Assembly: GCA_001898625.1 (NCBI GenBank)
Contig: MKUP01000010.1
Location: 310,001 to 374,000 of the forward strand
Length of the DNA stretch: 64,000 nt
Direction of reading: 5' to 3'
Origin: Burkholderiales bacterium 67-32
GTDB lineage: Bacteria; Pseudomonadota; Gammaproteobacteria; Burkholderiales; Burkholderiaceae_B
Position numbers and translations under genes: made by a program. The stretch's first letter is position 1, and each line of letters starts with the position of its first letter. Shown here piece after piece: positions 27,915-38,525 of the stretch. The notes under the pieces were generated by a model, which did no database searches, was not told the origin of the DNA, and worked only from the letters and a program-made list of their open reading frames with translations.

Positions 27915-29198
27915 ATGCGACTGACCGATCACGAGAAGGCCATGCTCGACGGCGCGCATGGCGCGGCCAAGCAGAAGGCCATGGACCTGCTGCTGCGCTA
28001 CGGCAACGCGCTGGGCGCCGAGCGCCTGGTCGAGACCCGCAACGTGGCGGGTACGATCGGCGCCACCACGCCCTTCATGCGCAAGTTCGCCGACGAGCGG
28101 GGCGGCCTGGACGCGGTGTTCTCCGAGTTCAACCTGGACAGCGCCGAGGTGGTCGCCATCCCGCCCGTCGAGGTCTACAGCAGCCACCTGCAACAGGGCA
28201 TCGATCCCGAGCACGCGGCCCGGCAGGGGGTGGGCGAAGAGGTCGTGCGCATCTTCCGCAAGGGCGATGCCTACAGCGCGGGCCTGGGCGTGCAGCTCCT
28301 GAACACCTGCACGCCCTACCAGGTCGGCAACCTGCCGGCCCGGGGCGAGCACTGTGCGTGGATGGAGTCCTCGGCCGTCATCTACATCAACGCCGTGCTG
28401 GGCGCGCGATCGAACGCGGAGGGACGGGAGAGCACGGGCGCGGCCATGCTGACGGGCCGAATTCCGTATTGGGGCTACCACATCGAGTCCGAGCGGCGCG
28501 GCACCCACCTGGTGGAACTGGACATGCCCGTCGAATCGATGTCGGACTGGGGCATGCTGGGCTACTACGTGGGCGACAAGGTGCAGGACAGGGTGCCCGT
28601 CATCGTCGGCGCCGGGCTGGCGCCCAGCACCCTCAAGCTCAAGCACTTCGGCGCCGCGGCGGCGTCCTCGGGCGGGGTGGAGATGTATCACATCCCTGGC
28701 TTCACGCCCGAGGCGCCGACGGTCGAGGCGGCCTTCGGCGGCAACCGTCCGCGCGAAGTGTTCCGCTTCGGCCCCAGGGAGCTGCGCGAGACCTACGAGA
28801 ACCTGAACGCCACGGCGCGCGATCCCGACGTCGATTTCGTCATGCTGGGCTGCCCGCACTACAGCATCGAGCAGATCTGGGAAGTGTGCCGGCTGCTGCA
28901 GGGCAAGCGCGTGCACGAGAACACCCAACTCTGGATCTTCACGCCCCGGGCCACCAGACAGATCGCCGACCAGAACGGCTACACCCGGATCATCGAGGAG
29001 GCGGGCGGCTACCTGATGTCGGACACCTGTTCGGCGCTGGGGCGCGTCATTCCCCAGGGCACCAAGGTGGCGGCGGTCGATTCGGCCAAGCAGGTCCACT
29101 ACCTGCCGGCCATCATGGGCATACAAGCCTGGTTCGGCAGCACCGCCGATTGCGTCGAGGCCGCGGTAACCGGCCGCTGGAAAGGAGGTTTGCGATGA
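27915..29198 (+). CDS. Aconitase X catalytic (large) subunit
   Basis: A 427-residue DUF521/AcnX catalytic subunit, a [2Fe-2S] dehydratase distantly related to aconitase. Candidate cluster cysteines are in LLNTCTPYQVG, MLGCPHYS and MSDTCSALGR. Characterised bacterial AcnX proteins act as cis-3-hydroxy-L-proline dehydratases, while archaeal ones dehydrate mevalonate 5-phosphate. The ATG at 27915 has a strong AAGGAGGG site. The stop overlaps the small-subunit ATG by four bases, matching the two-polypeptide AcnX type. The substrate here is open; hydroxyproline is the precedent, not a demonstration. Confidence 0.9.
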   Translation: MRLTDHEKAMLDGAHGAAKQKAMDLLLRYGNALGAERLVETRNVAGTIGATTPFMRKFADERGGLDAVFSEFNLDSAEVVAIPPVEVYSSHLQQGIDPEHAARQGVGEEVVRIFRKGDAYSAGLGVQLLNTCTPYQVGNLPARGEHCAWMESSAVIYINAVLGARSNAEGRESTGAAMLTGRIPYWGYHIESERRGTHLVELDMPVESMSDWGMLGYYVGDKVQDRVPVIVGAGLAPSTLKLKHFGAAAASSGGVEMYHIPGFTPEAPTVEAAFGGNRPREVFRFGPRELRETYENLNATARDPDVDFVMLGCPHYSIEQIWEVCRLLQGKRVHENTQLWIFTPRATRQIADQNGYTRIIEEAGGYLMSDTCSALGRVIPQGTKVAAVDSAKQVHYLPAIMGIQAWFGSTADCVEAAVTGRWKGGLR

Positions 29199-29647
29199 GC
29201 GGGCAGGATCGTTCCACGGCCGTTTCCGAGGTCATCGTGCTGCAAGGCCGGGGCATCGTGGGCGGATGCGCCGAGGGCGAGGCGCTGGTCACGCGCGACC
29301 GGATCTCGGGCTGGGGCGGCATCGACCCGCGCACCGGCACCGTCATCGAGACCCGCCATGAACTGCGCGGCATCAGCTTCGCCGGCAAGGTGCTGGTGTT
29401 TCCCGGCGCGAAGGGGTCGTCGGGCTGGTCCGGCCAGTTCCACATCGCCCGCATCTCCGGCATGGCGCCGGCGGCGATGCTGTTCAACGAAATGACGACC
29501 AAGATCGCGCTCGGGGCCGTGGTCACGCACGCGCCGTCGGTTACCGATTTCGACATCGACCCCTTGTCGGTGATCGAGACCGGCGACTGGGTCCGGGTGG
29601 ACGGCGACCTGGGCCGGGTGGAAGTGACCAAGCGGGGCAGGGGCTAG
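29195..29647 (+). CDS. Aconitase X swivel (small) subunit
   Basis: A 150-residue DUF126 protein, the swivelling domain that completes the AcnX active site. The family's serine-rich motif is seen in FPGAKGSSGWSGQFHIA, followed by GMAPAAMLFNE and VVTHAPSVTDFD. It overlaps the large subunit by four bases and has AAAGGAGG just upstream of its ATG. As a separate gene downstream of the large subunit it matches the split bacterial form. It probably ends the transcript starting at the FAD oxidoreductase. Confidence 0.9.
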   Translation: MSGQDRSTAVSEVIVLQGRGIVGGCAEGEALVTRDRISGWGGIDPRTGTVIETRHELRGISFAGKVLVFPGAKGSSGWSGQFHIARISGMAPAAMLFNEMTTKIALGAVVTHAPSVTDFDIDPLSVIETGDWVRVDGDLGRVEVTKRGRG

Positions 29648-31423: not shown

Positions 31424-32284
31424 TTATAGATTCACCGCGCGTCCGAGTGCCTGGCCCATGCGGAGTCCGCTGAGCGGCCCCAGGGCATCGCTCCAATCGA
31501 CCCGGCCGGCGCCGAACAGCAGGACCACGGTCGAGCCGAGCTTGAAGCGGCCCATTTCGGCGCCTTTTCCGAGCTGGATGGCACCGTCGTCGTAGCGCGT
31601 CGTCACGATGCGCGAGCCGTGCGGGGCGACCTGGCCGCCCCAGACGGTTTCCATGGCGCCCACGATCATCGCGCCCACCAGCACCATGGCCATGGGGCCG
31701 ATTTCGGTATCGAACAGGCAGGCCAGGCGTTCGTTGCGCGCGAACAGGCGCGGCACGGACCGGGCCGTGAGCGGGTTGACCGAGAACAGGCGCCCCGGGA
31801 TGTAGACGGTTTCGCGCAGGGTGCCGGCCACCGGCATGTGCACCCGGTGGTAGTCGCGCGGGGAAAGGTAGATGGTGGCGAAGCTGCCGTCCTGGTAGGG
31901 GCTGGCACGCCGGGCATCGCCGCCCAGCAGTTCCTCGGCGCTGAAATCATGCCCCTTGGCCTGGAAGATGCGGCCGGCGCGGATGGGGCCCAACTGGCTG
32001 ATGGCGCCGTCGGCGGGGCACAGGACGGCGTCCGGGGCGGGATCCAGCGGCCGCGCGCCGGGCTTGAGCGCGCGGGTGAAGAAGGCGTTGAAGTGCTCGT
32101 AGGCGGTGGGATCGGGCTCCAGGGCCTCGCTCATGTCCACGCCGTACCGGCGGATGAAGCGGGCGATGGCGGGGTTCTTCAGGGCGGCGACGCGGCAGTG
32201 CGCGAGGCGTCCGAACAGGCTGGAGACGAGCGCCTGGGGCGCGAGATGCTGGCCGTAGATGAAAAGCTGGTCTTTGATGGACAT
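31424..32284 (-). CDS. psd: Phosphatidylserine decarboxylase proenzyme
   Basis: Makes phosphatidylethanolamine from phosphatidylserine at the inner membrane. The 286-residue proenzyme contains the self-cleavage motif LGST ([11 protein letters not shown]); cleavage before the Ser gives the pyruvoyl group on the alpha chain. Other family segments are [25 protein letters not shown] and the late RFKLGS region. Length matches the E. coli type. The ATG at 32284 is the natural start ([10 protein letters not shown]). Confidence 0.95.
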
Positions 32285-32330: not shown

Positions 32331-33347
32331 TTACAGCGGTGCGGACGAGCCGCGCACGACCAGCTCGGGCCGCAGGACGACCGTGGATGTCGTGCCCGGC
32401 ACCCCGCGCAGGCTGTCCAGCAACAAACGGGCCGCCCGAAAGCCCATTTCGTAGTGCAGGATGCGCACGGTGGTCAGGGGAGGGGAGACGCGGTCCATCA
32501 GCGGCATGTCGTTGTGCCCGACGACCGAGACGTCCTGCGGCACCCTGCGCCCCTGCGCCTGCAGGGCCTGGATCGCACCCAGCGCGATCAGGTCGTTGGC
32601 GGCGACGATGGCGGTGAATTCGGCCGCGGTGCCCAGCAGCCTGCGCGTGCCGTCCTCGCCGGCATCGCAGGAATAGGCGTCGCATTCGGCGTAGCCGGCC
32701 GGCTCCAGCCCGTGGGCGGCCATGGCCTGGCGAAAACCGGCCTGGCGCAGCGAGCCGGTGGACAGCGCCAGCGGGCCGGACAGATGGGCGATGCGGCGGT
32801 GGCCGATGGACACCAGGTGGTCGACGGCCAGTTTCATGCCCAGCATGTCGTCGCTGACGACGGCAGGCAGGCTGCCGTCTTCGTCGCGGCGGTTGACCAG
32901 CACGACCTTGACCTGGTCGCGCACCAGGCGCTCGACCAGCGGGTCGTGCAGGCTGGAGGTGGCGATGATCAGCCCCTCGACCCGCTGGGCCAGCATGCGG
33001 TCCGCGGCCTGGTCGGGCGCCTGTTCGTTGCCGGTGTCCGCCACCAGGACGAAGAAGCCCTCAGCCGCCAGCGCCTGTTCGATGCCGCGCAGGATGGGCG
33101 GGAACACCGGGTTGGTGATGTCGGGCAGCAGCACGCCGACCGTGCCGGAGCGCCCCGTGCGCAGCGCCGACGCCGCGCGGTTGACTCGGTAGTTCAGGGC
33201 GCGGGCGGCGGCCTCGACACGGCCCACCACCTCGGGGCTGACCATGTGGCGACGTTCGGGATCCAGCGCGCGCGAGGCGGTGGTCTTGTGCACCTGGGCA
33301 TGCAGGGCGATGTCGGCGAGGGTGGCGGCAGAGGAACGCTTGGGCAT
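32331..33347 (-). CDS. LacI-family transcriptional repressor
   Basis: A 338-residue LacI/GalR protein. The N-terminal helix-turn-helix ([20 protein letters not shown]) and hinge ([20 protein letters not shown]) are followed by a periplasmic-binding-protein-like effector domain with [16 protein letters not shown] and [13 protein letters not shown]. An ATG ten codons upstream is possible, but MPKRSS is the usual kind of beginning. It is divergent from the dioxygenase operon; the 16-bp palindrome at 33429-33444 is its likely operator. Effector unknown, probably a pathway intermediate. Confidence 0.93.
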
Positions 33348-33398
33348 GGGCGAGATGATAGCGAAGTGCCGGCGCATGGTTCGAGGGAAATCTCCTTG

Positions 33399-33426
33399 TT
33401 GACAAGCGGAATGAACCGGATAAACT
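33399..33426 (+). promoter_or_regulatory. Sigma-70 promoter of the dioxygenase operon
   Basis: TTGACA at 33399-33404 is a consensus -35, followed after 16 bases by TAAACT at 33421-33426 as -10. Transcription would start near 33433, inside the palindrome at 33429-33444. This is one of the clearest promoters in the window. An RNA beginning there would leave an ATG at 33443 nearly leaderless, which supports the start at 33458 for the first gene. Confidence 0.7.
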
Positions 33427-33428
33427 GA

Positions 33429-33444
33429 ATGCTATCGATAGCAT
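33429..33444. promoter_or_regulatory. LacI-type operator palindrome
   Basis: ATGCTATCGATAGCAT is a perfect 16-bp palindrome with the central CG typical of LacI-family operators. It begins two bases after the -10 hexamer and covers the expected transcription start, so bound repressor would block initiation. The repressor gene lies immediately on the other side. A related imperfect site, TGCAATCGATGGCA, occurs at 33498-33511 within the first gene. Confidence 0.75.
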
Positions 33445-33457
33445 GAGGTTTTGCCAA

Positions 33458-34327
33458 ATGTTGCCCAGTACTCCCGAATCACTGACACCCATCGTTGTGC
33501 AATCGATGGCAAATACATCCGACGCCCGGGTCAAGGAACTGCTATGCAGCCTGGTCAGGCACCTGCACGCCTTCGTGCTGGAAACCCGCCTGACCGAGGC
33601 CGAGTTCGAATATGCGCTGGGCTACATCAACGCCATCGGCCAGGCCACCTGCGACACCAAGAACGAAGCGGTGCTGGTGGCCGACCTGCTGGGGGTGTCG
33701 TCGCTGGTGGCGCTGCTGAACAACGCCGACCACCACGGCGAGTCGGATGCCGCGCTGCTGGGCCCGTTCTGGCGCGCCAATTCGCCCAGCCTGGAACCCG
33801 GCGCGTCGCTCGCGGCGCCGGGCACGCCTGGCATTCCGCTGGAGGGCAGCGGGCGGGTGCAGGACCGCGAGGGCCGGCCGGTGGCGGGCGTCACGGTGGA
33901 CATCTGGCATGCCTCGCCCAGCGGCCTGTACGAAAACCAGGACGAAACCCAGCCCGACATGAACCTGCGCGGCCGCTACACCACCGACGAGAACGGCTGC
34001 TTCCGTTTTCGCTCGGTGCGGCCGGCCGGCTATCCGGTGCCGGTGGACGGGCCGGGCGGCGTGCTGCTGCGCGCCCAGGAGCGCCACGAGTTCCGGCCGG
34101 CGCACCTGCATTTCATGTTCTCCAAGCCCGGCTACAAGGTCCTGATCACCCAGGTCTACGCCGACGATTCGGAATTCCTGCACAGCGACCCCACCTTCGG
34201 CGTGACGCGCCGGCTGGTCGGCCAGTACCGGGTGGAGCCGCGCCCGGGCGGAGACGTCGCGGTGTTCGACCACTGCTTCACGCTGCTGGAAGGCGAGATG
34301 GTCTTCCCGCATCCCCCCATTCCCTGA
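33458..34327 (+). CDS. Intradiol ring-cleavage dioxygenase (hydroxyquinol 1,2-dioxygenase-like)
   Basis: Non-haem Fe(III) dioxygenase of 289 residues that cleaves an aromatic diol between its hydroxyls. An N-terminal catechol-dioxygenase dimerisation domain (RVKELLCSLVRHLHAF...) precedes the catalytic beta-sandwich. The four iron ligands are visible: Tyr in SGLYENQ, Tyr in RGRYTT, and two His in RPAHLHFMFSKPGY. Overall it most resembles hydroxyquinol 1,2-dioxygenases. The ATG at 33458 has GAGG ten bases upstream; ATG 33443 overlaps the operator and ATG 33506 would trim the domain. First gene of the LacI-controlled operon. Confidence 0.87.
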   Translation: MLPSTPESLTPIVVQSMANTSDARVKELLCSLVRHLHAFVLETRLTEAEFEYALGYINAIGQATCDTKNEAVLVADLLGVSSLVALLNNADHHGESDAALLGPFWRANSPSLEPGASLAAPGTPGIPLEGSGRVQDREGRPVAGVTVDIWHASPSGLYENQDETQPDMNLRGRYTTDENGCFRFRSVRPAGYPVPVDGPGGVLLRAQERHEFRPAHLHFMFSKPGYKVLITQVYADDSEFLHSDPTFGVTRRLVGQYRVEPRPGGDVAVFDHCFTLLEGEMVFPHPPIP

Positions 34328-34357
34328 TTTCCCCACGCATCTCCTAAGGAACTCTTC

Positions 34358-35125
34358 ATGACCCAAGCAACCCCATTCGCGCCGCAGGACCGCCTGGACG
34401 GCAAGGTGGCCGTGATCGCCGGCGGGACTGGCGCGATCGGCCATGCCAGCGCGCGGCGCCTGGCGGCCCGCGGGGCCCGCTGCGTGCTGCTGCACAACGG
34501 CGATCCCGCCGCCGCTGCCCGGGTGGCCGAGCTGCCCGGCGAAGGCCACGCCGAAGTCGTCGCCTCCATCACCGACAGTCCGGCCCTGAAGGCCGCGGCC
34601 GACCGCGTCCGCGCCGATTTCGGCACCTGCCACATCCTGGTCAACAGCGCCGGCTACACCAAGCCCGTGCCCGCGGCCGACCTGGACGCACTGACCGACG
34701 AACTGATCGACGACATCCTGAAGGTCAATTTCCGGGGCGTCTTCTCGACCATCCGCGCCTTCGCGCCCCTGCTCAAGGAAAGCGGCGACGGCCTGATCGT
34801 GACGCTGTCCTCGATCGCCGCCTTCACCGGCGTCGGCAGCAACCTGGCCTACGTCGCGGCCAAGGCCAGCGTCGACGTGGTGGGCGAGGCCCTGGCGCGC
34901 GTGCTCGCGCCGCAGGTGCGCGTGCTGTCGGTCAGCCCGGGCGTGGTCGATTCCGCCTTCGTGCCGGGCCGGGGCGCCGATTTCAACGCCAAGACCGCGG
35001 CCACCACGCCGCTGGGCCGCATCGGCACCACCGACGACATCGCCGCCGCGGTCGAAGCCTGCGCCACCTCGCTGCGCTTCGCCACCGGCACCCGCATCGT
35101 GGTCGATGGAGGACGCCACCTGTGA
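34358..35125 (+). CDS. SDR family oxidoreductase
   Basis: Short-chain dehydrogenase/reductase of 255 residues. Cofactor motif GGTGAIGHA, structural NSAG (ILVNSAGYTK), and catalytic Ser-Tyr-Lys as LSSIAAFTG...YVAAKAS; the C-terminus is GTRIVVDGGRHL. The Shine-Dalgarno AAGGA precedes the ATG. It follows the dioxygenase by 30 bases and overlaps the next gene as GTGA. In this context it might reduce a ring-cleavage product, a role a maleylacetate reductase normally plays, but that is inference. Confidence 0.9.
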   Translation: MTQATPFAPQDRLDGKVAVIAGGTGAIGHASARRLAARGARCVLLHNGDPAAAARVAELPGEGHAEVVASITDSPALKAAADRVRADFGTCHILVNSAGYTKPVPAADLDALTDELIDDILKVNFRGVFSTIRAFAPLLKESGDGLIVTLSSIAAFTGVGSNLAYVAAKASVDVVGEALARVLAPQVRVLSVSPGVVDSAFVPGRGADFNAKTAATTPLGRIGTTDDIAAAVEACATSLRFATGTRIVVDGGRHL

Positions 35126-36003
35126 ACCCGACCGTCATCACCTGCGCGATCACCGGCAACCTGACCAAGCCGGAGCAGACGCCGCACCTGCCCATCACGC
35201 CCGAACAGATCGCCGACTCGGCGCTGGAGGCGGCCCGCGCCGGCGCGGCGCAGGTCCACATCCACGTGCGCGACCCGCAAACCGGCCGGCCCTCGATGGA
35301 CGTCGGGCTGTACGACGAGGTCATCCGCCGCATCCGCGCGCAGAACCGCGAAGTCATCATCAACCTGACCACCGGCCCCGGCGGCCGCTACGTGCCGAGC
35401 GAGGCCGAGCCCCGCGTGGCCGGCCCCGGCACCACGCTGCTGCCGCCGGAAAAACGGGTCGAGCACATCGCGCGGCTGCGGCCCGACGTCTGCTCGCTGG
35501 ATCTGAACACCATGAACTCCGGCGCCGAGGTGGTCATCAACACCCCGCGCAACGTGCGCGTCATGGCCGGCGTCATCCGCGAGGCGGGCGTCAAGCCGGA
35601 ACTGGAGATCTTCGATAGCGGCGACATCCATCTTGCGCGCGACTTGATCGCCGATGGCACGCTGGACGGGCCGGGCATGTGGACCTTCGTCACCGGCGTC
35701 AAGTACGGCTTCGAGGCCACGCCCGAGACGCTGCTGTACGCCCGCAGCCTGTTGCCGGCGGGCGCGTTCTGGTCCGCCTTCGGGGTGGGCCGCCACGAGT
35801 TCCCGATGCTGGCGGCCTCCTTCGTGTCGGGCGGCCACGTTCGCGTGGGCCTGGAAGACAACATCTACCTGGCCCGCGGGGTCCTGGCGCCCAGCAACGC
35901 GGCGCTGGTGGAGCGCGCCGTGCGCATCGTGCAGGACCTGGGAGGAAGCGTGGCGAGCGCCGGCGAGGCGCGCGACATGCTGGGCCTGCCCATCAAGAAC
36001 TGA
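35122..36003 (+). CDS. Beta-keto acid cleavage enzyme (BKACE, DUF849)
   Basis: A 293-residue zinc TIM-barrel enzyme of the family of 3-keto-5-aminohexanoate cleavage enzyme (Kce). These enzymes react a beta-keto acid with acetyl-CoA, giving acetoacetate and a new CoA thioester. The metal motif HIHVRD, the DLNTMNSG segment, and GGHVRVGLEDNIYL with its metal-binding His and active-site Glu are all present. It starts with GTG at 35122, overlapping the SDR stop. Characterised family members accept varied beta-keto acids; a product of aromatic ring cleavage such as beta-ketoadipate is plausible here. Confidence 0.9.
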   Translation: MNPTVITCAITGNLTKPEQTPHLPITPEQIADSALEAARAGAAQVHIHVRDPQTGRPSMDVGLYDEVIRRIRAQNREVIINLTTGPGGRYVPSEAEPRVAGPGTTLLPPEKRVEHIARLRPDVCSLDLNTMNSGAEVVINTPRNVRVMAGVIREAGVKPELEIFDSGDIHLARDLIADGTLDGPGMWTFVTGVKYGFEATPETLLYARSLLPAGAFWSAFGVGRHEFPMLAASFVSGGHVRVGLEDNIYLARGVLAPSNAALVERAVRIVQDLGGSVASAGEARDMLGLPIKN

Positions 36004-36020
36004 AGGAACCGCTACCGATC

Positions 36021-37043
36021 ATGTCCATCGTCATGCAAGAAACCCAATCCGGACCGGCCGTGCGCGTGCTGGCGAAAGCCGAGTCCGCCGCCCATCTGGC
36101 CCCGGCCATCGAAACGCTGGCCATGCCCCGGCCAGCGCCCGGCCACGCCATCGTCAAGGTGGCCAGCGCGGCCGTCAATCCCAGCGACGTGAAAGCGGCA
36201 ATGGGCCTGATGCCGCAGGCCGTCTGGCCGCGCACGCCCGGCCGCGACTTCGCTGGCACGGTTGTGGCGGGACCCACCGAATGGATAGGCCGCCGCGTCT
36301 GGGGCTCGGGCGGCGACCTGGGTATCACACGAGACGGTTCCCATGCCGCCTGGCTCACGCTGCCGCTGGCCGCGCTGGAGGAAATGCCCTCGGGCCTGGA
36401 CTTCGACGCCGCCGGGTCGATAGGCGTGCCGTTCGTGACGGCCCATGAAGGCTTCCAGCGCAGCGGCATGCCGCAACCGGGCCAGGTGGTCGCCGTCATG
36501 GGCGCCAACGGCAAGGTGGGGCAGGCCTCGGTGCAGCTCGCGGCACAGGCCGGGGCACGGGTCATCGCGGTCCAGCGACGGCCGGGCCCCTATGCCGGGT
36601 TCGCCTGCGCGCCCGTCGAGGTGGTGGACGCCAGCCGGGAAGACGTTGCCGCGCGGCTGCGCGAGCTGACGGATGGCCGCGGCGTGGACCTGGTCTACAA
36701 CACCGTGGGCAGCCCGTACTTCCAGGCCGCCAACCAGGCCATGGCCAAGCGCGCCACGCAGATCTTCATCTCCACGGTCGAGCGCCCGGTGCCGTTCGAC
36801 ATCTTCACGTTCTACCGCGCCATGCACACCTACGTGGGCGTGGATTCGCTGGCCATGGACTGCACCGAGGCGGCCGCGCACCTGCGGGCGCTGCGGCCCG
36901 GGTTCGAGGCCGGCACGCTGCGGCCCTTTCCCGTGGGCGACGATGCCGTCTACGCGCTGACCGATGCGCTCGAGGCCTATCGCACCGTGATAGGTGGATC
37001 GGACCAGCGCATCGTGCTGCGTCCCTGGGGAACCGCGGCATGA
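36021..37043 (+). CDS. MDR-superfamily quinone-type oxidoreductase
   Basis: A 340-residue medium-chain dehydrogenase/reductase. The GroES-like N-domain has GHAIVKVASAAVNPSDVKA and PRTPGRDFAGTVV; the Rossmann motif is VMGANGKVGQASVQLA, followed by RGVDLVYNTVGSPYF. The Cys/His zinc ligands of alcohol dehydrogenases are not evident, so it is likely a zinc-free quinone or enoyl reductase using NAD(P)H. The ATG at 36021 follows the BKACE gene by 17 bases with AAGGA upstream. It might reduce a double bond in the ring-cleavage product; this is inferred from position. Confidence 0.85.
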   Translation: MSIVMQETQSGPAVRVLAKAESAAHLAPAIETLAMPRPAPGHAIVKVASAAVNPSDVKAAMGLMPQAVWPRTPGRDFAGTVVAGPTEWIGRRVWGSGGDLGITRDGSHAAWLTLPLAALEEMPSGLDFDAAGSIGVPFVTAHEGFQRSGMPQPGQVVAVMGANGKVGQASVQLAAQAGARVIAVQRRPGPYAGFACAPVEVVDASREDVAARLRELTDGRGVDLVYNTVGSPYFQAANQAMAKRATQIFISTVERPVPFDIFTFYRAMHTYVGVDSLAMDCTEAAAHLRALRPGFEAGTLRPFPVGDDAVYALTDALEAYRTVIGGSDQRIVLRPWGTAA

Positions 37044-37402
37044 ACGTCACCCGTTATCCCGAGGCCCCGGTCTACGAGGCCCCCAACCACTTCGACATGC
37101 GCTGCGTGCGCCTGCAGGGCAGGGAAGCCGGCCCGGCCGAGCAACTGTGGCTGGGCGTCTCGACGCTGGAGCCCGGCGGCCACACCTCGCTGGATGGCTC
37201 GCCCATGGAGAAGCACTACGTAGTCCTGGAAGGCGAGCTGGTCGTCGTGAGCGAGCTGGACGGGGTACGCCAGGAAGCCATGCTGGGGCGCCTGGACTCC
37301 TGCCGCCTCGCGCCCGGGGAGAAACGCCAGTTGATCAACCGCAGCGGCCGGACGGCATCGGTGCTGCTGGCCATGCCATTCAGTCCGCCCGTCCAGGGCT
37401 AG
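37040..37402 (+). CDS. Single-domain cupin protein
   Basis: A 120-residue cupin. The first cupin motif is degenerate (LEPGGHTSLDGSPMEKHYVVLEGEL, quoted by its ends LEPGGHT and VLEGEL), with candidate metal ligands His and Glu; the second motif (LAPGEKRQLINRSGRTAS) lacks the usual His. It overlaps the oxidoreductase gene by four bases. It may be a small isomerase, decarboxylase or effector-binding protein of the pathway. Function is not assignable. Confidence 0.8.
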   Translation: MNVTRYPEAPVYEAPNHFDMRCVRLQGREAGPAEQLWLGVSTLEPGGHTSLDGSPMEKHYVVLEGELVVVSELDGVRQEAMLGRLDSCRLAPGEKRQLINRSGRTASVLLAMPFSPPVQG

Positions 37403-37442
37403 GGCCGCCGTTCCATTCGATAAATCAGAGAGGAGACACACC

Positions 37443-38435
37443 ATGCAACGACATTCCCACGCGCGCCGGACCTCGCTGCGCGTCCTCGCGGCCGCGACGA
37501 TGCTGGCCGCGGGCGCGAGCGCCCAGGCCCAGGGCAACTGGCCCCAGGGCACCCCCATCCGCTTCATCGTTCCGTTCACAGCGGGCAGCGGCACCGACGT
37601 GGTGGCGCGTTCGATCGCCGACAAGCTCGGTCCCATCCTGGGCGCGCAGATCGTGGTCGAGAACAAGCCCGGCGCGGGCGGCACGCTGGGCGCTGCCCAG
37701 GTCGCCAAGGCGCCCGCCGATGGCTACACCCTGCTGATCCACAGCTCGGGCCACCTCGTCAATCCGTCCATCTATCCGAATCTGCCGTACGACACGCTCA
37801 AGGACTTCGAGGGCATCACGCCGCTGGCCAGCCTGCCCAACGTGCTGGTGGTCTCGCCCTCGGCCGGGTTCAAGAACCTGGGCGACCTGATCGCCAAGGC
37901 CAAGGCCGATCCCGGCAAGCTGTTCTACGCCTCGGCGGGCAATGGCTCGGCCACCCACATGAATGCGGAGCAGTTCCGTGTGGCCTCCGGCATCGAGGCG
38001 GTGCACGTGCCGTTCCGCGGAACGCCTGAAGCCATGACCGAGACCATCGCGGGCCGCACGACCTGGTTCTTCGCGCCGCTGGTGTCGGCCCTGCCCATGA
38101 TCAAGGACGGCAAGCTGCAGGCGCTGGCCGTGGGTGCCGCCGCGCGCTCGGCCGCGCTGCCCGACGTGCCCTCGATGACCGACTCGGGCCTGCCGGCCGC
38201 GGCCTACACGTTCTGGGTGGGCCTGTTCGCGCCGGCCAAGACGCCGCAGCCCGTGGTCGACAAGATCCACGCCGGCGTGCTGAAGGTGCTGGAAATGCCC
38301 GACATCAAGACCCGCTTCGCCAACTTGGGCGCCACCCCCATGCCCATGGACCAGAAAGCCTTCGAAAAGTACCTGACGGACGAAACGAAGTCCGCGTCCC
38401 AGCTCGTGAAAGCCGCCGGCATCAAGATCGAGTAG
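37443..38435 (+). CDS. Bug-family tripartite tricarboxylate receptor
   Basis: Periplasmic carboxylate-binding protein of 330 residues. A twin-basic but ordinary Sec-type signal (ending around ASAQAQG) precedes PIRFIVPFTAGSGTDVVARS; DGYTLLIHSSG and HVPFRGTPEAMTETIAGR are family hallmarks. GAGGAG lies a few bases before the ATG. It is the last gene of the LacI-controlled operon, before the strong terminator at 38471-38505, and probably captures the substrate, likely an aromatic acid. Confidence 0.92.
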   Translation: MQRHSHARRTSLRVLAAATMLAAGASAQAQGNWPQGTPIRFIVPFTAGSGTDVVARSIADKLGPILGAQIVVENKPGAGGTLGAAQVAKAPADGYTLLIHSSGHLVNPSIYPNLPYDTLKDFEGITPLASLPNVLVVSPSAGFKNLGDLIAKAKADPGKLFYASAGNGSATHMNAEQFRVASGIEAVHVPFRGTPEAMTETIAGRTTWFFAPLVSALPMIKDGKLQALAVGAAARSAALPDVPSMTDSGLPAAAYTFWVGLFAPAKTPQPVVDKIHAGVLKVLEMPDIKTRFANLGATPMPMDQKAFEKYLTDETKSASQLVKAAGIKIE

Positions 38436-38470
38436 GCGAGCGGCGCTCCCCGCCTGTCGTCTGCCAAGAA

Positions 38471-38505
38471 AAACGGCCTCGCATCTTTCGAAAGCGAGGC
38501 CGTTT
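38471..38505. terminator. Bidirectional intrinsic terminator
   Basis: Perfect 12-bp stem: AAACGGCCTCGC at 38471-38482 pairs with GCGAGGCCGTTT at 38494-38505 around an 11-base loop, with an A-run before and a T-run after. It lies between two convergent Bug genes (ending at 38435 and 38526) and should stop transcription from both sides. Confidence 0.88.
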
Positions 38506-38525
38506 TCAGTTTCGCAGAGATACGA

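Follow-up and report, generated by a model that had tools for sequence, protein, structure and literature searches.

Gene Content and Organization of the Locus

A 64,000-nucleotide stretch of the genome of Burkholderiales bacterium 67-32 (contig MKUP01000010.1, positions 310,001 to 374,000; hereafter the window) carries an operon of six genes, which encode an intradiol ring-cleavage dioxygenase, a short-chain dehydrogenase/reductase (SDR), a BKACE enzyme (DUF849), a zinc-free medium-chain dehydrogenase/reductase (MDR), a small cupin, and a Bug-type periplasmic binding protein, in this order. The genome is Pigmentiphaga-like and has a size of 6.66 Mb. A gene for a LacI-family repressor lies divergently upstream, and a terminator follows the Bug gene. 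This arrangement of six genes with their own repressor and a strong terminator had been described in a first-pass annotation, which used the DNA letters alone; coordinates and Pfam matches agree with it, as does the predicted hairpin (z −5.3, none of 200 shuffles being equally good). The operon is a real conserved unit, and we tentatively read it as a lower pathway for a hydroxyquinol-type ring. The features are:

32331..33377, minus strand: LacI-family repressor, divergent from the operon (Pfam LacI and Peripla_BP_3; co-variation of gene and operator)
33399..33426, plus strand: sigma-70-like promoter, TTGACA-N16-TAAACT (10 of 12 matches)
33429..33444, no strand: predicted operator O1, perfect 16-bp palindrome ATGCTATCGATAGCAT just past the −10 box
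33458..34327, plus strand: intradiol ring-cleavage dioxygenase (reading frame open from 33443; GAGG at 33445-33448)
33498..33511, no strand: possible second operator O2, TGCAATCGATGGCA, one mismatch, within the 5′ end of the dioxygenase gene
34358..35125, plus strand: SDR (Pfam adh_short_C2; Ser152-Tyr165-Lys169)
35122..36003, plus strand: BKACE (DUF849), Phe type (zinc ligands H46, H48, and E245; R89, F164)
36021..37043, plus strand: zinc-free MDR oxidoreductase of the quinone oxidoreductase/enoyl-reductase type
37040..37402, plus strand: small cupin without conserved metal site
37443..38435, plus strand: Bug/TctC-type periplasmic binding protein (Pfam TctC, 244 bits)
38470..38506, plus strand: strong hairpin terminator, 13-bp stem (predicted fold −23.0 kcal/mol)

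Pfam assigns the dioxygenase to Dioxygenase_C and Dioxygenase_N, the SDR to adh_short_C2, the BKACE to its own family (331.8 bits), the MDR to ADH_N and ADH_zinc_N, the Bug protein to TctC, and the repressor to LacI and Peripla_BP. The intergenic gaps of 30, −4, 17, −4, and 40 bp fit a single transcript. For the dioxygenase, the start at 33458 is preferred because the first ATG (33443) overlaps the operator. The promoter-like pattern occurs at two sites in the region versus 0.9 expected and is weak evidence by itself. The terminator lies between two convergent Bug genes; an initial pattern scan left it unlisted, probably owing to a short T run or a wide loop.

Conservation and Distribution

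GTDB contigs were scanned with the BKACE as lead, and the best 80 loci were kept from at least 594 matched stretches. Fifty-two of these have a BKACE at least 70.5% identical to that of the window, and within 6.5 kb of it they encode the dioxygenase (50 loci), the SDR (51), the MDR (50), the cupin (51), a LacI repressor (36), and a Bug protein (37). Both loci without the dioxygenase (L077 and L130) are cut by contig ends. Below 70.5% identity, only 2 of 28 loci have a dioxygenase, namely L128 (Humitalea) and L129 (Roseomonas).

The BKACE and the dioxygenase were also sought separately in 101 Variovorax genomes, which avoids the bias of a BKACE-led search. The BKACE is present in 66 of them and an operon-type dioxygenase (E < 1e-100) in 64, with both in 63 (Fisher p 3e-22, although these genomes are related and hence do not represent independent events). 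In 62 of the 63 the two genes lie on the same strand with 791–919 bp between them, while the 63rd has them split over two contigs. The first-pass annotation would have been refuted by BKACE genes that never accompany the dioxygenase in other genomes, and these counts speak decisively against that.

The operon is conserved across Alcaligenaceae, Comamonadaceae, Burkholderiaceae, and Roseomonadaceae, with one type of operator in the first three. Protein distance matrices correlate at 0.78–0.92 for four genes (38 loci) and at 0.90–0.96 for six genes (30 loci). Its closest named relatives are found in Pigmentiphaga sp. NML080357 (BKACE 92% identical) and P. humi (90%). Ten other genomes of the genus were named, more being possible beyond this list, and six of them carry the dioxygenase at 87–99% identity. 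In two more of them (G193 and G194), a dioxygenase of about 50% identity is followed by SDR and BKACE genes and groups with the Burkholderiaceae operon types (support 90/93, not starred). A plasmid search with the window's dioxygenase returned 833 records, none at least 60% identical.

Repressor, Operator, and Regulon

The palindrome ATGCTATCGATAGCAT at 33429-33444 is the sole site of the 16-mer pattern in the whole 6.66 Mb genome, and the reversed-pattern control matched nowhere in the 25 genomes scanned. For the 14-mer operator with up to one mismatch, 0.03 sites per window are expected by chance. The putative second operator O2 is 68 bp away from O1, measured from centre to centre. Of 48 operon loci, the window included, 37 have an operator where the dioxygenase gene begins, with the variants TGCAAACGTTTGCA, TGCAATCGATTGCA, and TGCAACCGGTTGCA. 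The strict operator is present in 32 of the 36 loci with a LacI gene versus one of the 12 without (Fisher p 6.5e-7), and this lone LacI-less locus (L065) has a LacI gene 42 kb off; the strict 14-mer misses four sites that a palindrome scan recovers (L055, L061, L063, and L113). The palindrome can be firmly predicted to be the dedicated operator of the divergent LacI repressor. Together with the short gaps, the unique operator and its linkage to LacI sustain the earlier view of a single repressor-controlled unit.

An operator site was found in 46 of the 101 Variovorax genomes, using a pattern that demanded two more bases than the 14-mer and whose reversed control matched once (G757); where both strands of the palindrome gave rows, one row per genome was used. 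In 44 of the 46 the site lies 3–43 bp upstream of the dioxygenase match, and in the remaining two the BKACE gene is located 1.7 kb further on. All 46 genomes encode the BKACE. Because no second site of the pattern occurs in any Pigmentiphaga or Variovorax genome scanned, the regulon looks like a single operon in both genera.

In Paraburkholderia, 18 of 144 genomes contain the 16-mer operator, and here it also precedes other genes. In P. elongata it stands before a porin located after a LacI and a CUT2-like ABC transporter (below family cut-offs), an operator-porin-permease arrangement that is repeated in three more Paraburkholderia. P. fungorum has additional operators before a RidA gene (against an AAHS transporter) and before an aldehyde dehydrogenase (ALDH)-amidohydrolase gene pair divergent from a LacI gene. 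P. tagetis and P. oxyphila have the operator between the dioxygenase gene and a divergent FAD_binding_2 flavoprotein of the 3-ketosteroid/4-oxocyclohexanecarboxylate dehydrogenase kind (below cut-offs). We read these operator-linked genes as probable feeders, differing between species, into one lower pathway. Two further Paraburkholderia matches (L163 and L164) have unrelated contexts. RidA and the ALDH-amidohydrolase pair in P. fungorum, as well as RidA in C. basilensis (L101), brought a nitrogen-containing substrate into consideration; as these genes stand outside the Pigmentiphaga and Variovorax operon, they were taken for peripheral feeders and this candidate was discarded.

In the window, lacI is followed directly on its own strand by a phosphatidylserine decarboxylase gene (31424-32284), so that read-through from lacI could be of importance.

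The Dioxygenase and the Type of Ring

The window's dioxygenase matches Pfam PF00775/PF04444 and retains the two Tyr and two His iron ligands. Of the solved proteins, hydroxyquinol dioxygenases are its best relatives, with 208.8 bits for PnpC versus 123.4 for the best catechol enzyme. Its identity is 40.8% with PnpC and 36.2% with the paralogs in its own genome that are linked to iron-type alcohol dehydrogenases (Fe-ADHs). We take position 83 of 1TMX to be an important site in hydroxyquinol dioxygenases. Asp occupies it in all 49 operon copies compared (16, 8, 22, and 2 in four groups, plus the window) and in all 12 rows of the hydroxyquinol clade, whereas the clade neighboring the operon copies has Gly in 11 of 11 cases; over all 89 rows there are 77 Asp, 11 Gly, and one Asn. 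The tree included proteins of at least 230 amino acids, and a gene covered by several loci entered it once.

The two Roseomonadaceae loci add a substitution. In Humitalea and Roseomonas, the LacI, MDR, BKACE, SDR, and Bug genes surround a dioxygenase whose identity is 45.6 and 48.0% with PnpC, respectively, and about 37% with the window's enzyme. Among the operon copies, only these two fall inside the hydroxyquinol clade (with long branches flagged). This exchange of dioxygenases is the best pointer to the ring type, and together with Asp83 it favors a hydroxyquinol-type ring as the probable substrate.

The BKACE Homolog

The BKACE matches the PF05853 profile and possesses the zinc ligands H46, H48, and E245. 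The window's enzyme and those of 80 of 80 loci have Phe164 where the catalytic Tyr would be, and Arg89 is common to all of them. Four of the five BKACE paralogs in the same genome are of the Tyr type, and three of those pass the NCBI 3,5-dioxohexanoate model. Among solved proteins, BsfD is the nearest (371.6 bits; 57.7% identity over 286 residues); this enzyme of flavophos biosynthesis (PDB 9ZSC) acetylates and decarboxylates its substrate rather than cleaving it (PMC12871164). BsfD resembles the window's BKACE in F166/F164, R91/R89, the zinc ligands, and a loop insertion, and its Arg91, with which R89 aligns, is placed near the far anionic group (PMC12871164). It differs in being a biosynthetic enzyme for acetyl transfer and decarboxylation on a phosphonate; the operon shows no sign of phosphonates.

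Phe-type BKACEs also occur in catabolic-looking sugar-acid and TctABC clusters, and because of this context we favor cleavage for them: it argues that they would split beta-keto acids. In rhizobia (L092, L104, L106, L108, and L110) they stand beside TctA/TctB genes and a gene for a protein of about 300 amino acids (f8), for which the tested copy (L106:11092-11940) gave no match in Pfam; an HpcH aldolase gene adjoins the BKACE gene in three of these five loci.

MDR, SDR, and Cupin

In profile and fold searches, the closest profile matches of the MDR belong to the quinone oxidoreductase/enoyl-reductase branch, and its relatives reduce C=C bonds or quinones; fold searches here confirm folds, not substrates. 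The view that the enzyme is zinc-free is upheld by the motifs NPSD and GRD, conserved where the zinc-ligand motif, as we take it to be, would stand: N53, D56, and G74 are invariant, and P54, S55, R75, and D76 nearly so. Its branch appears suited to C=C reduction. Two loci, one in the same genome (L134, 6861-11490) and one in another genome of the family (L142, 6543-11300), combine dioxygenase, MDR, and Bug genes with a gene for a Cupin_2 protein, and neither an SDR nor a BKACE was seen in the 18–19 kb around them. Because dioxygenase and MDR stay together there, the MDR is probably tied to the ring product. The dioxygenase of these clusters is related, their Cupin_2 protein comprises 174–176 amino acids, and they represent a possible second, MDR-based ring-cleavage unit.

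The catalytic triad Ser152-Tyr165-Lys169 of the SDR is invariant in 43 of 43 operon copies. Related SDRs are encoded with Phe-type BKACEs at places that have no dioxygenase nearby, and because of this the SDR may work at the BKACE step. The first-pass annotation had let either the SDR or the MDR replace maleylacetate reductase. The branch of the MDR suits the reduction of a C=C bond, but the choice between the two enzymes is undecided.

The cupin has a weak Cupin_2 match (19.3 bits versus a cut-off of 27.2), but its AlphaFold2 model (pLDDT 92) is a clear cupin barrel, closest to TM1459. Compared with the cupin metal motifs 1 and 2, as we presume them to be, the motif-2 His is replaced by Arg96, invariant in 22 of 22 copies, and the motif-1 HxH is absent. 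Its best NCBIfam family, NF050094 (below cut-off), is labelled 'beta-D-galactosidase', an unlikely name for a cupin of 120 amino acids. Small barrel proteins recur next to such dioxygenases, namely the cupin in the window, a Dabb protein (L135), a SnoaL protein (L136), and a YciI protein (L129), and they may share a tautomerase or guard role.

Related Loci and Known Systems

The genome encodes nine intradiol-type dioxygenase matches including that of the window. Locus L135 (7431-12428) combines a dioxygenase with an Fe-ADH, an FAD monooxygenase, and a Dabb protein; locus L136 (4829-8488 and 12282-13774) contains an Fe-ADH and, at a distance of about 5 kb from its dioxygenase, a thiolase and a CoA-transferase pair. 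None of the six Fe-ADH matches of the genome lies on the operon's contig, and the genome's CoA-transferase pair, thiolase, and two Fe-ADHs have no match in the window (tblastn, E ≤ 0.001). The earlier statement that classical maleylacetate reductase and transferase genes are lacking here is thus correct for this locus, with such genes present elsewhere in the genome, and a plain canonical hydroxyquinol operon was rejected on these grounds. In P. elongata (L087), an Fe-ADH gene (673-1731) shares the direction of the operon's dioxygenase gene and is located 6.6 kb upstream of it; the classical reductase and the operon can therefore be near neighbors. Molybdenum-hydroxylase-type genes occur near the operon in some Burkholderiales (L057, 18191-20856; L083, 1-3614), in L083 beside two amidohydrolase genes, and are possible feeders for N-heterocycles or aldehydes. 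The window also encodes a two-part aconitase X (large subunit AcnX, 27915-29198; swivel subunit, 29195-29647), and this stretch (27915-29647) is present in genome G196 (locus L143) as well.

Among known systems, the hydroxyquinol branch of the beta-ketoadipate pathway is alike in the intradiol opening of a trihydroxybenzene-type ring as the likely first step. L135 and L136 look like this branch, and there, too, a small barrel protein and a Bug protein are encoded near the dioxygenase. However, the branch has an Fe-type maleylacetate reductase, a CoA-transferase, and a thiolase, whereas the operon has an MDR and a BKACE, is under LacI control, and has a dioxygenase outside the characterized clade. 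A BKACE in place of PcaIJ/PcaF has been proposed for protocatechuate/catechol clusters of Methylobacterium (PMC8963497) and Ralstonia eutropha (PMC6449761). These proposals share the idea of a BKACE that would finish a beta-ketoadipate route, but the clusters belong to the protocatechuate and catechol branches, and the operon's BKACE is of the Phe type and misses the 3-oxoadipate cut-off. Several Methylobacterium BKACEs are assigned to group G4 (PMC8963497); PMC4922564 gives a second-hand account of the BKACE groups. In deoxyribonate oxidation, an SDR and a BKACE were proposed to act in tandem to yield acetoacetate and an acyl-CoA (PMC6365646), but this concerns a sugar acid and involves no ring cleavage. 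No description of the six-gene operon was found in the searched literature, which holds few subscription journals, and it is apparently an unstudied variant of the hydroxyquinol/beta-ketoadipate theme.

Proposed Pathway and Alternatives

The first-pass annotation's route from ring cleavage to BKACE is the best single guess. In this reading, to which we give a probability of about 0.42, the operon would form a self-contained lower pathway, repressed by LacI, for a ring of the hydroxyquinol type (benzene-1,2,4-triol or one of its close derivatives). The catalytic residues of the dioxygenase and the SDR and the zinc ligands of the BKACE are intact. The Bug protein would capture the inducing acid or phenol, and binding of the ring compound or of its product would release repression by LacI. 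The dioxygenase would open the ring to maleylacetate (3-hydroxymuconate), with the metal-free cupin aiding the enol-to-keto step or guarding a labile product. The MDR would then reduce the C=C bond to give 3-oxoadipate, replacing the iron-type maleylacetate reductase. Finally, the Phe-type BKACE would join this beta-keto diacid with acetyl-CoA, R89 holding the far carboxylate, and release acetoacetate and succinyl-CoA, thus replacing PcaIJ plus PcaF. The SDR would act next to the BKACE on a hydroxy or keto acid.

A number of observations weigh against this pathway. The part of the route that stands is the hydroxyquinol-type ring, favored by Asp83 and the Roseomonadaceae loci; the assumption that its BKACE is of the characterized beta-ketoadipate kind has fallen. 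With Phe164, the enzyme lacks the catalytic Tyr (Tyr145 in CcaKce, PMC12871164) and hence is not of the canonical cleavage type, it scores 191 bits against the 350-bit cut-off of the NCBI 3-oxoadipate:acetyl-CoA acetyltransferase model NF053568, and its nearest solved relative is BsfD. R89 and F164 are not specific to the route either, being present in Phe-type BKACEs without a dioxygenase nearby. In the tree, whose base is unresolved, the dioxygenase is not a member of the supported clade that unites solved (PnpC, 1TMX, and 8R2W) and Fe-ADH-linked hydroxyquinol enzymes, and by identity it is nearer to paralogs with Gly at position 83 (46.5% to L141). One such Gly-type paralog (L157, P. fungorum) stands beside 4-oxalocrotonate-type genes, namely those for a tautomerase, two proteins of the fumarylacetoacetate (FAA)-hydrolase fold, and a DmpG aldolase. 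With L135 and L136, the genome already combines a dioxygenase with an Fe-ADH at two loci, so that the route is not needed for hydroxyquinol as such, and plain hydroxyquinol as substrate leaves the SDR without an obvious job. The distribution of the operon is patchy, because across 399 evenly sampled genomes of the order the BKACE (E ≤ 1e-110) occurs in this genome only; five others have a 46–53% dioxygenase match (E ≤ 1e-75) without the BKACE. Moreover, the operator pattern was matched in only 46 of the 66 BKACE-bearing Variovorax genomes, the other 20 lacking the exact pattern, and the searched literature holds no assay of any operon protein. The proposed chemistry is plausible, but it depends on putative cleavage by a Phe-type BKACE and leaves the SDR idle.

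The idle SDR is what a different ring would account for. If the substrate had an extra oxygen (tetrahydroxybenzene or a substituted hydroxyquinol), the SDR would be required to correct a hydroxy or keto group before the BKACE cut; 2-hydroxy-4-oxoadipate, for example, would yield malyl-CoA and acetoacetate. Consistent with this, an SDR of 63–64% identity lies about 2 kb from a Phe-type BKACE without a dioxygenase in L119 and L120, related SDRs occur in loci of rhizobia and relatives (46–50%) and adjoin the BKACE in L122, L124, and L125 (41–45%), and SDR and BKACE are a genetically supported pair for deoxyribonate (PMC6365646). However, the core operon contains no hydroxylase for such a ring, and the Roseomonadaceae version uses a hydroxyquinol-clade dioxygenase, which leaves this reading somewhat unlikely. 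A rather unlikely exchange of roles would make the MDR a quinone reductase that recycles autoxidized hydroxybenzoquinone to hydroxyquinol, and the SDR the maleylacetate reductase. The best profile matches of the MDR are indeed quinone oxidoreductases, and the SDR gene lies between those of dioxygenase and BKACE in most loci, where the gap of 791–919 bp fits one SDR; but L134 and L142 keep dioxygenase, MDR, and Cupin_2 protein without an SDR, and related SDRs go with the BKACE where no dioxygenase is near. A pyrogallol-type route to 4-oxalocrotonate, suggested by L157, was set aside as less likely given Asp versus Gly at position 83, all the more as the product of the 4-oxalocrotonate route is not a beta-keto acid.

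The BKACE might also follow BsfD, with which it shares F164, R89, and the loop insertion, and acetylate C2 of the beta-keto acid, decarboxylation then giving a beta-diketone (succinylacetone from 3-oxoadipate), CoA, and CO2. The authors of the BsfD study tentatively tie the Tyr-to-Phe change to the altered chemistry (PMC12871164). Such a route would stall, however, as the core operon encodes no diketone hydrolase, and cleavage makes more sense in the sugar-acid and TctABC clusters in which Phe-type BKACEs are found; we regard it as quite improbable. A long shot, judged slightly less harshly, is a central route for cyclitol-like polyols, in which non-aromatic ring sugars would be aromatized and then opened, with the Phe-type BKACE finishing. 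The flavoprotein of P. tagetis and P. oxyphila could aromatize a ring ketone to hydroxyquinol, and on any other reading it would be difficult to say why a ring-cleavage operon has a repressor and a transporter of the sugar type. That the genes share an operon and not a pathway would accommodate an SDR and a cupin without assigned roles, but conservation across four families and the co-occurrence counts (adjacency in 62 of 63 Variovorax genomes, 50 of 52 close loci) largely refute it, and we discarded a chance neighborhood as exceedingly improbable.

Implications

If the hydroxyquinol-type pathway is true, degradation of such rings would be finished without an iron-type maleylacetate reductase, a CoA-transferase, or a thiolase. 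The operon's BKACE is found in 66 of the 101 genomes of Variovorax, a frequent inhabitant of soil and of roots. With an operator this close to unique, the inducer can be searched for directly. BsfD is the only solved and assayed Phe-type relative that we found, and its chemistry is different; the pathway, if true, would provide Phe-type BKACEs with a physiological role and test the meaning of the Tyr-to-Phe change.

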